Shown in pieces: positions 14,537 through 15,397 of a DNA stretch of 64,000 bases. Every line of letters starts with the position of its first letter. Position 1 is the stretch's first letter. Origin of the DNA: Chryseobacterium formosum (GTDB taxonomy: Bacteria; Bacteroidota; Bacteroidia; Flavobacteriales; Weeksellaceae); the NCBI RefSeq assembly GCF_026460885.1, contig NZ_JAOVZW010000001.1:496001-560000 (forward strand). The letters run 5' to 3'. The notes beneath the pieces were generated by a model. The model worked only from the letters and a program-made list of their open reading frames with translations, ran no database searches and was not told the origin of the DNA. The position numbers and the translations under genes were made by a program.

Positions 14537-14630
14537 ACGAAAATAAACCTACGAATATTGCGCTGAGATAGCACTTGGTTTAGAAAAATGATAATTGTGA
14601 GATTATTGAAAAATAAAACATATTAAAATC

Positions 14631-14661
14631 AAAAAAGACTTACAATAATGTAAGTTTTTTT
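14631..14661 (-). terminator. Hairpin terminator of the degenerate tRNA-Asn copy
   Basis: An imperfect copy of the hairpin that ends the two intact tRNA-Asn genes (AAAAAAGAC-TACA ... TGTA-GTC-TTTTTT), preceded by the same ATTAAAATC flank. It shows that the third tRNA copy arose by duplication of the whole tRNA-plus-terminator unit. Confidence 0.6.
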
Positions 14662-14740
14662 CTCCTCCTCTTGGATCCCGCAAGTGCGGGGGACCCTCTG
14701 ATTAATCCCGAAAGTTCGGGACTCTAACCAACTGAGCTAA
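14662..14740 (-). pseudogene. Degenerate tRNA-Asn with palindromes in place of anticodon and T arms
   Basis: Minus-strand sequence matches the intact tRNA-Asn copies over the D arm (TTAGCTCAGTTGGTTAGAG), the 3' anticodon stem and variable loop (TAATCAGAGGGTCC), and the 3' acceptor (AAGAGGAGGA). The anticodon (CATCTGACTGT) is replaced by a segment holding TCCCGAACTTTCGGGA, and the T stem-loop by one holding CCCGCACTTGCGGG. The 5' acceptor strand is missing. It cannot be a working tRNA. The D arm and first palindrome are also coding sequence for the carboxyl end of the GIY-YIG gene. Confidence 0.8.
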
Positions 14741-15011
14741 TATTCCTGATAATTGAAAGTTTGTATCGCACAGCGTCTCAAGTAATTTTCTTGATTTTTG
14801 CTTTTTAATAAACCGTTCAATTATAATGGCAATTGTTTTATCTTCTGAAACCTCAAAAAGTGCAACCATTTTCCAGGGTCTGAATTTACGTGTAAAAGTA
14901 TTAAAGTTTTCTTGCTCGTTATGTTTCAAAAGTCTTTCTTTCGGAGATTGGGTATATCCGATGTAAAATTTATCTGCTGCTTCTGAAAATAAGAATATAA
15001 ATGTAATGCAT
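14702..15011 (-). pseudogene. GIY-YIG nuclease family gene, probably frameshifted, ending inside a tRNA remnant
   Basis: A small single-domain GIY-YIG nuclease of the UPF0213/YhbQ-like type, of unknown cellular target. The open frame extends to 15037, but its first residues do not look like the family. From the ATG at 15011 another frame reads MHYIYIL, the expected GIY strand, and one extra base in ATTCTTATTTTC shifts it out of the frame that continues FSEAADKFYIGYTQSPKERLLKHN. Removing that base restores a standard protein of about 102 residues, with the YIG motif, the R of KERLLKHN, and the E of IIERFIKKQKSRKL. The last residues, LAQLVRVPNFRD, are encoded by the D arm of a tRNA-Asn remnant and a palindrome. 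It may be inactive, a sequencing artefact, or start at 15028 with an altered amino end. Confidence 0.7.
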
Positions 15012-15035
15012 GCGAAAACCAGGATCATTAAAATC

Positions 15036-15067
15036 AAAAAAGACCTACAATAATGTAAGTCTTTTTT
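15036..15067 (-). terminator. Terminator of tRNA-Asn copy 2
   Basis: AAAAAAGAC-TTACA pairs with TGTA-GGTCTTTTTT on the minus strand right after the tRNA 3' end. The same hairpin follows copy 1 at 15291. Confidence 0.75.
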
Positions 15068-15068
15068 G

Positions 15069-15142
15069 CTCCTCCTCTTGGGCTCGAACCAAGGACCCTC
15101 TGATTAACAGTCAGATGCTCTAACCAACTGAGCTAAGGAGGA
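15069..15142 (-). tRNA. tRNA-Asn (GTT), copy 2
   Basis: A 74-base cloverleaf on the minus strand: acceptor TCCTCCT/AGGAGGA, D arm GCTC-AGTTGGTTA-GAGC, anticodon stem TCTGA/TCAGA with loop CTGTTAA (anticodon GTT), and T arm CTTGG-TTCGAGC-CCAAG. The discriminator base is G and CCA is not encoded. It has its own promoter and terminator. Confidence 0.97.
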
Positions 15143-15164
15143 ATGTTCCTCTTTTAAGGTGCTG

Positions 15165-15172
15165 CAAAGATA
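15165..15172 (-). promoter_or_regulatory. -7 element of tRNA-Asn copy 2
   Basis: Minus-strand TATCTTTG lies 22 bases before the tRNA 5' end, in the same position as the element of copy 1. Confidence 0.65.
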
Positions 15173-15290
15173 ATATGAAAAATAATATCAAGCAAATATT
15201 TTTTTATCAAAATTACCCGAAAAGTGCTATCGGATTATATTTCAGGAATTTAAATTTTAAAATAATTTGAAACAGGAAGGTATTAAAATC

Positions 15291-15322
15291 AAAAAAGACC
15301 TACAATAATGTAAGTCTTTTTT
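15291..15322 (-). terminator. Terminator of tRNA-Asn copy 1
   Basis: The same hairpin and T run as after copy 2, including the ATTAAAATC flank, so the duplicated unit includes tRNA and terminator. Confidence 0.75.
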
Positions 15323-15323
15323 G

Positions 15324-15397
15324 CTCCTCCTCTTGGGCTCGAACCAAGGACCCTCTGATTAACAGTCAGATGCTCTAACCAACTGAGCTAAGGAGGA
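15324..15397 (-). tRNA. tRNA-Asn (GTT), copy 1
   Basis: Identical over the 74-base cloverleaf to the copy at 15069-15142, with anticodon GTT, G discriminator and no encoded CCA. It lies just downstream of rseP on the same strand but has its own promoter at 15420, so it need not depend on rseP transcription. Confidence 0.97.

Follow-up and report, generated by a model that had tools for sequence, protein, structure and literature searches.

How does a small nuclease gene come to lie between an intact transfer RNA (tRNA) gene and a broken copy of that same gene? The question is raised by a locus in Chryseobacterium formosum (assembly GCF_026460885.1, contig NZ_JAOVZW010000001.1) within a stretch of 64,000 nucleotides (nt) at positions 496,001 to 560,000 of the forward strand (hereafter, the window, whose own numbering is used below). 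A preliminary description of this DNA noted two intact tRNA-Asn(GTT) genes, a gene for a GIY-YIG nuclease and a partial third tRNA copy, all of which were confirmed (ARAGORN, Rfam and repeat comparisons), and read them as a tRNA-targeting, homing-like unit. That reading is supported in its main lines, and we lean towards it with some confidence: the unit would be a minimal homing-like mobile element of the chromosome that is aimed at tRNA genes, with cleavage and transfer as inferred steps. The literature searched, which covered few subscription journals, yielded no description of such an element, and the family (that is, nuclease-only elements that use tRNA genes on bacterial chromosomes) is apparently undescribed.

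Below, T denotes the intact tRNA gene and T' the partial, arm-replaced copy of the neighbouring tRNA; G and L numbers label genomes and loci in the survey sets. The parts of the locus, including the open reading frame (ORF) of the nuclease, are as follows:

15323-15397, minus strand: tRNA-Asn(GTT) copy 1, intact (ARAGORN; Rfam RF00005, 69 bits)
15290-15323, minus strand: terminator-like hairpin after copy 1 (inverted repeat I8 with a T run)
15068-15142, minus strand: tRNA-Asn(GTT) copy 2, intact, adjoining the element (ARAGORN; Rfam, 69 bits)
15035-15068, minus strand: terminator-like hairpin in the interval between copy 2 and the ORF (inverted repeat I7)
14702-15037, minus strand: GIY-YIG nuclease ORF, 111 amino acids, TTG start as listed (PF01541, E value 1.8e-12)
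14722-14740, minus strand: D-arm piece of T', doubling as the C-terminal codons LAQLVR (repeat D4, 19/19 nt identical to the intact copies)
14706-14721, minus strand: palindrome 1, TCCCGAACTTTCGGGA, replacing the 5' strand of the anticodon arm and part of its loop (covariation in 33 relatives' rows)
14691-14705, minus strand: anticodon 3' strand and variable region of T' (repeat D5, 15/15 nt identical)
14677-14690, minus strand: palindrome 2, CCCGCACTTGCGGG, replacing the 5' strand and loop of the T arm (sequence inspection)
About 14662-14674, minus strand: 3' strands of the T stem and acceptor of T' (inside repeat D3, 14655-14674, 95%)
14630-14661, minus strand: copy of the native tRNA terminator, after T' (inverted-repeat pairs I2/I3 with the other two terminators)

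The intact pair lies inside a 179-nt direct repeat (91% identical) with a start-to-start distance of 255 nt. As the preliminary description had claimed, the nuclease ends in tRNA sequence: its last 12 codons (LAQLVRVPNFRD) are the D arm, at the full identity listed above, followed by the first palindrome. T' drew no tRNA call from ARAGORN and none from Rfam up to an E value of 1, and between copy 2 and T' the ORFs of at least 40 amino acids are the GIY-YIG gene and a 46-amino-acid antisense frame inside it. The three terminator hairpins of the window, one after each tRNA copy, are nearly identical; in G106, G055, G141 and G130, by contrast, the hairpin before the ORF is unlike that after T'.

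The case for a tRNA-directed element rests on how regularly relatives of this gene recur beside tRNA genes. We compiled three sets of loci (170 in total), namely the best 80 of 118 from named genomes (a set biased toward close relatives), the 30 best matches in the phylum and 60 further loci chosen by hand among the matches listed, best first; four pairs share an ORF core, leaving 166 distinct loci. A tRNA gene on the same strand adjoins 147 of the 170 (139 upstream, at up to 620 nt, and 8 downstream, at up to 100 nt), with a median tRNA-ORF distance at the upstream loci of 51 nt and 104 of them within 70 nt. On the far side of the ORF, a fragment of the neighbouring tRNA scores above all 200 shuffles in 132 of these 147 loci, so the remnant on whose presence in relatives the preliminary description had staked its case does accompany the gene; with distinct loci only, a tRNA is adjacent in 145 of 166 and T' is supported in 130. 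As a control, the other 5 of the 7 PF01541 genes in the C. formosum genome have no tRNA within the 3.2-kb pieces inspected. Nuclease relatives at an E value of 1e-6 occur in 178 of 296 sampled Bacteroidota genomes, a figure in which the tRNA was checked for only part of the matches. Relatives were also seen in records titled Cloacimonadota, Patescibacteria and Neomarinimicrobiota (L093, L098 and L102), which may reflect transfer beyond Bacteroidota or mis-binned contigs.

About eleven tRNA isotypes are targeted. The T'-supported rows (128) comprise Asn 30, Arg 24, Val 16, Asp 13, Gly 13, Ala 11, Met 10, Ser 5, Pro 3, Leu 1, Phe 1 and Cys 1, the last of which (L104) is probably a T' that ARAGORN mistook for a tRNA. 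On a protein tree of the nucleases the isotype changes 29 times, compared with 85.9 times for shuffled labels, and none of 200 shuffles was as low; near-copies inflate this contrast, and the tree was built by a quick method from 83 columns with 83 of its 161 inner branches left open, its 128 labels including L104 and excluding loci without T' support. Nuclease lineages thus tend to stay with one isotype and sometimes switch. In L096, L104 and L131, ARAGORN called a tRNA-Cys(GCA) at the end of the ORF, where a T' of the tRNA-Val type is expected, and the tRNA annotation of Bacteroidota may hold such false tRNA-Cys genes.

The second regularity concerns the palindromes, which the preliminary description took to be left behind by the unit; they are present as described, and rather than being merely leftover they form a covarying part of it. 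A palindrome with ends of the CCCG/CGGG or TCCG/CGGA type was found in 96 of 125 T' regions, compared with 14 of 334 control windows lying further downstream, in a count that uses the last unit of each array and scores decayed last units as misses. The motif TCC[CG][CG]N2-9[CG][CG]GGA was found in 80 of 125 T' regions (an undercount, the stretch used being short at tRNA-Arg loci) and in 1 of 125 intact tRNAs. Across 33 T' rows from tRNA-Asn loci the TCCCG/CGGGA arms are nearly constant, and the next pair inwards is A-T in 15, C-G in 13, T-A in 5 and unpaired in none. The covariation score of these rows is 0.228, compared with 0.054 when shuffled and at most 0.092 when slid, for a structure that was derived from the tested sequences themselves and is favoured by that choice; two of five covariation measures (pairs changed on both sides, and further pair types) were no higher than in shuffles. 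Of 38 rows, five were set aside to give these 33: three readings of 18 nt from L084, and two of 14 nt that repeated places already represented. Judged by eye, the palindrome occupies the anticodon arm at Asn, Arg, Val and Ala loci and mostly the T arm at Asp loci, the Asp exceptions with an anticodon-arm palindrome being L091 and L172.

In the C. formosum genome, the pattern CCCGNANNTNCGGG has two matches in the window (0.01 expected) and occurs at three places overall, two of them inside the window element, which rules out a chance pick-up of dispersed palindromic repeats. The wider form TCCCGN3-9CGGGA occurs at 14 places in the genome, one in the window element and one in a tRNA-Arg element. 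As a separate observation, a GIY-YIG gene at L003 (G000:C10) without any tRNA beside it has repeated stretches like GTCATTCTGAGCGAAG...GAAGAATCTC on both flanks, no more than a few hundred nt away.

Within the genus, carriers can be set beside empty sites. A search with a single query sequence against 173 genomes (E value of 1e-8 or better) found a close relative in 15: nine lie at tRNA-Asn, and the other six belong to the tRNA-Arg(TCT) kind, one of which (L019) is cut by a contig end such that its tRNA is not visible; the search undercounts the tRNA-Arg kind, given that a separate look at tRNA-Arg loci revealed ORFs in additional genomes. With 14 further genus genomes having relatives, an islet unique to the C. 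formosum genome is ruled out. Units at tRNA-Asn are built as ORF, D arm, palindrome, 3' half and terminator, with the T arm of T' intact in G133, G118 and G055 and replaced in G000, G106 and G018, and the tRNA-Arg part-copy is similarly built, its anticodon arm being replaced by TCCCGATT..AATCGGGA. Remnant and gene mostly go together: 28 of 30 tRNA-Asn loci (each covering only 1.5 kb to either side of a single tRNA copy) have neither ORF nor remnant, and the other two are the known carrier G018 and an ORF-less scar (L030, in G001). Among 30 tRNA-Arg loci, 6 have an ORF (including L256, where no palindrome was found), 2 have units without an ORF, and the remaining 22 show neither ORF nor palindrome. 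When the empty allele of G010 is aligned with the carriers G141, G118 and G055, a single insertion separates the intact tRNA from the native flank; repetition of the tRNA's 3' part and of the terminator makes the precise boundary ambiguous. The corresponding alignment for the locus in the window was scattered and uninformative. The unit sits between the intact tRNA and the native downstream sequence and duplicates the 3' part of the tRNA or, in a mirror form, its 5' part. At tRNA-Asn it measures about 375 nt (from the spacing in G055) and comprises a terminator-like hairpin, the small GIY-YIG gene and T', in which GC-rich palindromes take the place of one or two arms.

In the mirror form a broken tRNA copy lies upstream, followed by the ORF and then by the intact tRNA. 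It was found at tRNA-Ser(GCT and TGA), tRNA-Arg(CCT) and one tRNA-Val, with six clear cases by count (L203, L211, L215, L216, L226 and L227), and the broken copy plainly has palindromes in the Ser and Val cases. On the poorly resolved protein tree the arrangement (that is, 3' type or mirror) changes four times, the doubtful label L104 included. Units also occur in tandem, lose their ORF and decay. Two or more ORFs (up to seven) are present in 51 of the 170 loci after merging the pieces of broken ORFs; G055 has four units in tandem at tRNA-Asn, L273 is an ORF-less array with units of about 127 nt, and in L277 a single ORF-bearing unit precedes ORF-less ones of about 144 nt each. Tandem units coincide with runs of N in L015 and L008, and many loci stop at a contig edge; arrays may break assemblies, and copy numbers are perhaps underestimated.

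The nuclease copy in the window is itself probably an inactive pseudogene, one decayed member of the family, because its N-terminus is out of frame relative to its relatives owing to an extra base in about the first ten codons (compared by eye). The expected ATG lies near position 15011 and intact relatives begin MYYIYIL, while the listed TTG start sits at the edge of the copy 2 terminator hairpin. Y5, Y16, R26, H30 and E65, which we take to be the GIY-YIG catalytic residues, are invariant across 11 aligned relatives, and the catalytic domain is recognizable in the window ORF at the PF01541 E value given above. Intact ORFs are under purifying selection, with ratios of non-synonymous to synonymous divergence (dN/dS) of 0.09-0.29 in 10 of 12 pairs and saturated dS in the other two. 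A terminator-like hairpin separates tRNA and ORF in 86 of the 102 loci examined, which suggests that ORF expression may rely on transcripts that read through from the promoter of the tRNA. The C-terminal tail RVPxxRD, which the preliminary description thought might be shared family-wide, is real in that it terminates 20 of the 39 ORFs at tRNA-Asn; it is restricted to the main tRNA-Asn clade, and tails differ by isotype (for example, IEHPDL at tRNA-Arg). By sequence, the nearest solved structures are UPF0213-type GIY-YIG proteins (PDB 1zg2 and 1ywl) and SLX1 (7cq2), at E values of 1.5e-6 to 2.8e-6; compared by name only, UPF0213-type chains are similar in size to the nuclease studied here, whereas SLX1 chains have about 300 residues.

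These features can be assembled into a mechanism in which cleavage and transfer are the steps that we infer. The nuclease would cut the matching tRNA gene in a DNA molecule that lacks the unit, and recombination through short tRNA homology would then install the unit, re-forming one intact tRNA and displacing the spare half. A single crossover within the tRNA, 3' of the palindrome, would yield an intact T and a displaced T', and this reading fits the anatomy of the unit. The palindromes would stop the displaced copy from folding as a tRNA and would split the homology (into pieces of 13-19 nt in the window), and split homology would slow the loss of the unit by recombination. Tandem growth could proceed through unequal recombination between T and T'. 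More tentatively, and at a confidence that falls a little short of endorsement, we propose a phylum-wide and undescribed class of autonomous mobile elements that, with a gene of about 300 nt and part of a tRNA, would rank with the smallest in bacteria and would combine isotype-specific homing, re-formation of one tRNA, disarming of the spare copy by palindromes, tandem spread with non-autonomous derivatives, and mirror forms that probably arose more than once.

Two known systems resemble parts of this design. The GIY-YIG nuclease SegB of T6 cuts inside tRNA genes, and 23 of 83 cleavage sites carry the motif RAWTSGAAC (PMC13096335). It also causes a unit of tRNA and segB to amplify in tandem, the 5' end of the tRNA and the 3' end of segB sharing microhomology (PMC13096335). 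In our reading, this motif would be the reverse complement of the T-loop region. SegB and the elements described here have in common a GIY-YIG gene beside tRNA genes, tandem nuclease-tRNA units and microhomology between nuclease gene and tRNA; however, SegB is borne by T-even phages, is free-standing and lies near a wide range of isotypes without preference, and the parts of that report available to us do not mention a palindrome-filled partial tRNA (PMC13096335), whereas the present elements are chromosomal, track isotypes and carry T'. In fungal mitochondria, elements known as mORFs bring an endonuclease gene and a new gene end into a host gene, leaving the native end downstream and producing hybrid genes, and the atp9 case is a GIY-YIG gene (PMC3630166). 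Their layout, with a complete gene on one side of the endonuclease ORF and a displaced gene end on the other, is the one found here. They differ in that they occupy mitochondrial protein genes, and the portions of the source that we could consult mention neither palindromes in the displaced end nor arrays nor a mirror form; a foreign origin of the replaced end is argued from phylogeny for mORFs (PMC3630166) and would be one of two possible directions for the elements described here. The elements combine the SegB and mORF designs and add palindromes, isotype tracking and the mirror form. They also share with free-standing homing endonucleases a gene that lies beside its presumed target and alleles with and without it, and we would class them, on sequence grounds, as GIY-YIG proteins with a homing-like way of working, short of membership among the homing endonucleases.

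Other known classes were compared as well. A group I intron is ruled out, as the neighbouring tRNA is uninterrupted (ARAGORN) and no relevant Rfam intron family was matched: among the five matches up to an E value of 1, the only intron family is an irrelevant Drosophila one (0.48). The protein model TIGR01453 matched only weakly (5 of 11 members, best E value 2e-4). With regard to REP/RAYT systems, the unit codes only for the GIY-YIG protein, no search having been aimed at a Y1 (RAYT) transposase.

Several observations weigh against a homing-like element. No cleavage, transfer or excision was observed in what is a sequence-only analysis. Carriers keep an intact tRNA, that is, a possible cut site in their own host, and something must therefore limit self-cutting. 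T' does not rise above the shuffles in 15 of the 147 tRNA-adjacent loci. No tRNA adjoins the other 23 loci, of which 16 have a contig end no more than 500 nt away and seven do not; in three of these seven (L184, L190 and L202), inspection by eye shows a remnant resembling T'. Hardly any relatives turned up in viral contigs (1) or plasmids (2 weak matches), in a search that did not extend to a phage collection; within the same scope, a phage or plasmid element likewise finds no support. The evidence for a foreign 3' half in T also cuts both ways. By eye, the two tRNA-Asn copies agree in their T stem in about 70 genomes among the matches listed, with the exceptions of G055 and G009. In G055, copy 1 and the last T' have GCTGG and copy 2 has CTTGG, which would fit a foreign 3' half, but both types occur, about equally near, among the closest relatives of G055. 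In G312, the T' stem is that of five matching genomes among 30 searched alongside, which would fit as well, but in two of those five (G469 and G470) the tRNA in question has a GIY-YIG relative of its own, and the supposed native stem is in the intact tRNA. Because the relatives of G055 carry both types and G469 and G470 are themselves carriers, the replacement of the 3' half of T may have run in either direction.

The alternative that survives best is that the palindrome itself is the target of the nuclease. Small GIY-YIG single-strand nucleases of the Ssn family in Neisseria reportedly lie near NTS/dRS3 palindromes with TCCC/GGGA arms, such a palindrome being the reported target of a nuclease of this kind there, and are said to have no tRNA halves. 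By analogy, the unit would carry its own site for a site-specific (perhaps single-strand) nuclease, and cutting would drive tandem amplification or loss beside tRNA genes, or limit DNA uptake. Such a role would suit a non-tRNA sequence, TCCCG...CGGGA, that is common to the T' of different isotypes at the motif frequencies given above, as well as the covariation of the inner palindrome pairs. It leaves unexplained why nuclease lineages tend to be faithful to an isotype and why T' copies the neighbouring tRNA; moreover, several other TCCCG...CGGGA palindromes in the genome are ordinary terminator-like sequences or lie within long open frames, and some units (for example, most of those at tRNA-Met) use TCCGCC...GGCGGA instead. 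We regard this explanation as unlikely.

A homing-like element is also to be weighed against tyrosine-integrase islands. tRNA genes, and especially their 3' halves, are the usual attachment sites of such islands, which restore the tRNA halves that they use, and the units might be short satellites or leftovers of such islands with the nuclease as cargo. In G009, an extra tRNA-Asn 3' half lies about 9 kb past copy 2 and resembles an island end. Yet a unit of about 375 nt can hold only one ORF and contains no integrase of its own, the single gene shared among units is the nuclease, whose phylogeny tracks isotype, and the mirror 5' type and the tandem and ORF-less arrays are atypical of islands (a comparison made with no integrase search around the loci), all of which makes an island origin distinctly improbable. 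The G009 locus (G009:C1:3092082 and 3101331) merits mention in its own right, with T stems GCTGG, CTTGG and GCTGG in a row that look like an island end that swapped the 3' half of a tRNA; extra tRNA-Asn 3' halves resembling it were counted in G050, G060, G063 and others.

A device that benefits the host is a very doubtful proposition. It would change copy number at tRNA loci, as SegB does in amplifying its tRNA-segB unit (PMC13096335), and supply T' transcripts as decoys against tRNA-cutting toxins; arrays are indeed common, and the tRNA-Cys calls at the expected T' in L096 and L104 can be read as T' being able to be tRNA-like. What the arrays multiply, however, is T' and not the intact tRNA, T' of the Asn type has no 5' acceptor strand, presence in the genus is patchy and several copies are decayed. 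That small GIY-YIG genes land anywhere and tRNA loci, as known insertion hotspots, simply gather debris such as the decayed window copy is scarcely credible in view of the shared strand, the near-constant distance, the matching tRNA fragment, the tracking of isotypes and the other GIY-YIG genes of the same genome that are unlinked to tRNA.

If the homing-like element that we favour is real, Bacteroidota carry a hidden load of nuclease units at their tRNA genes, which could account for many of the short GIY-YIG genes that are annotated and for some of the odd tRNA calls. Compact nucleases, should they have a sharp specificity for tRNA-gene or palindrome DNA, could serve as tools. The family would also offer a natural system in which to follow how a nuclease switches its target between tRNA isotypes, how gene ends are replaced outside mitochondria and how copy number changes at tRNA loci.

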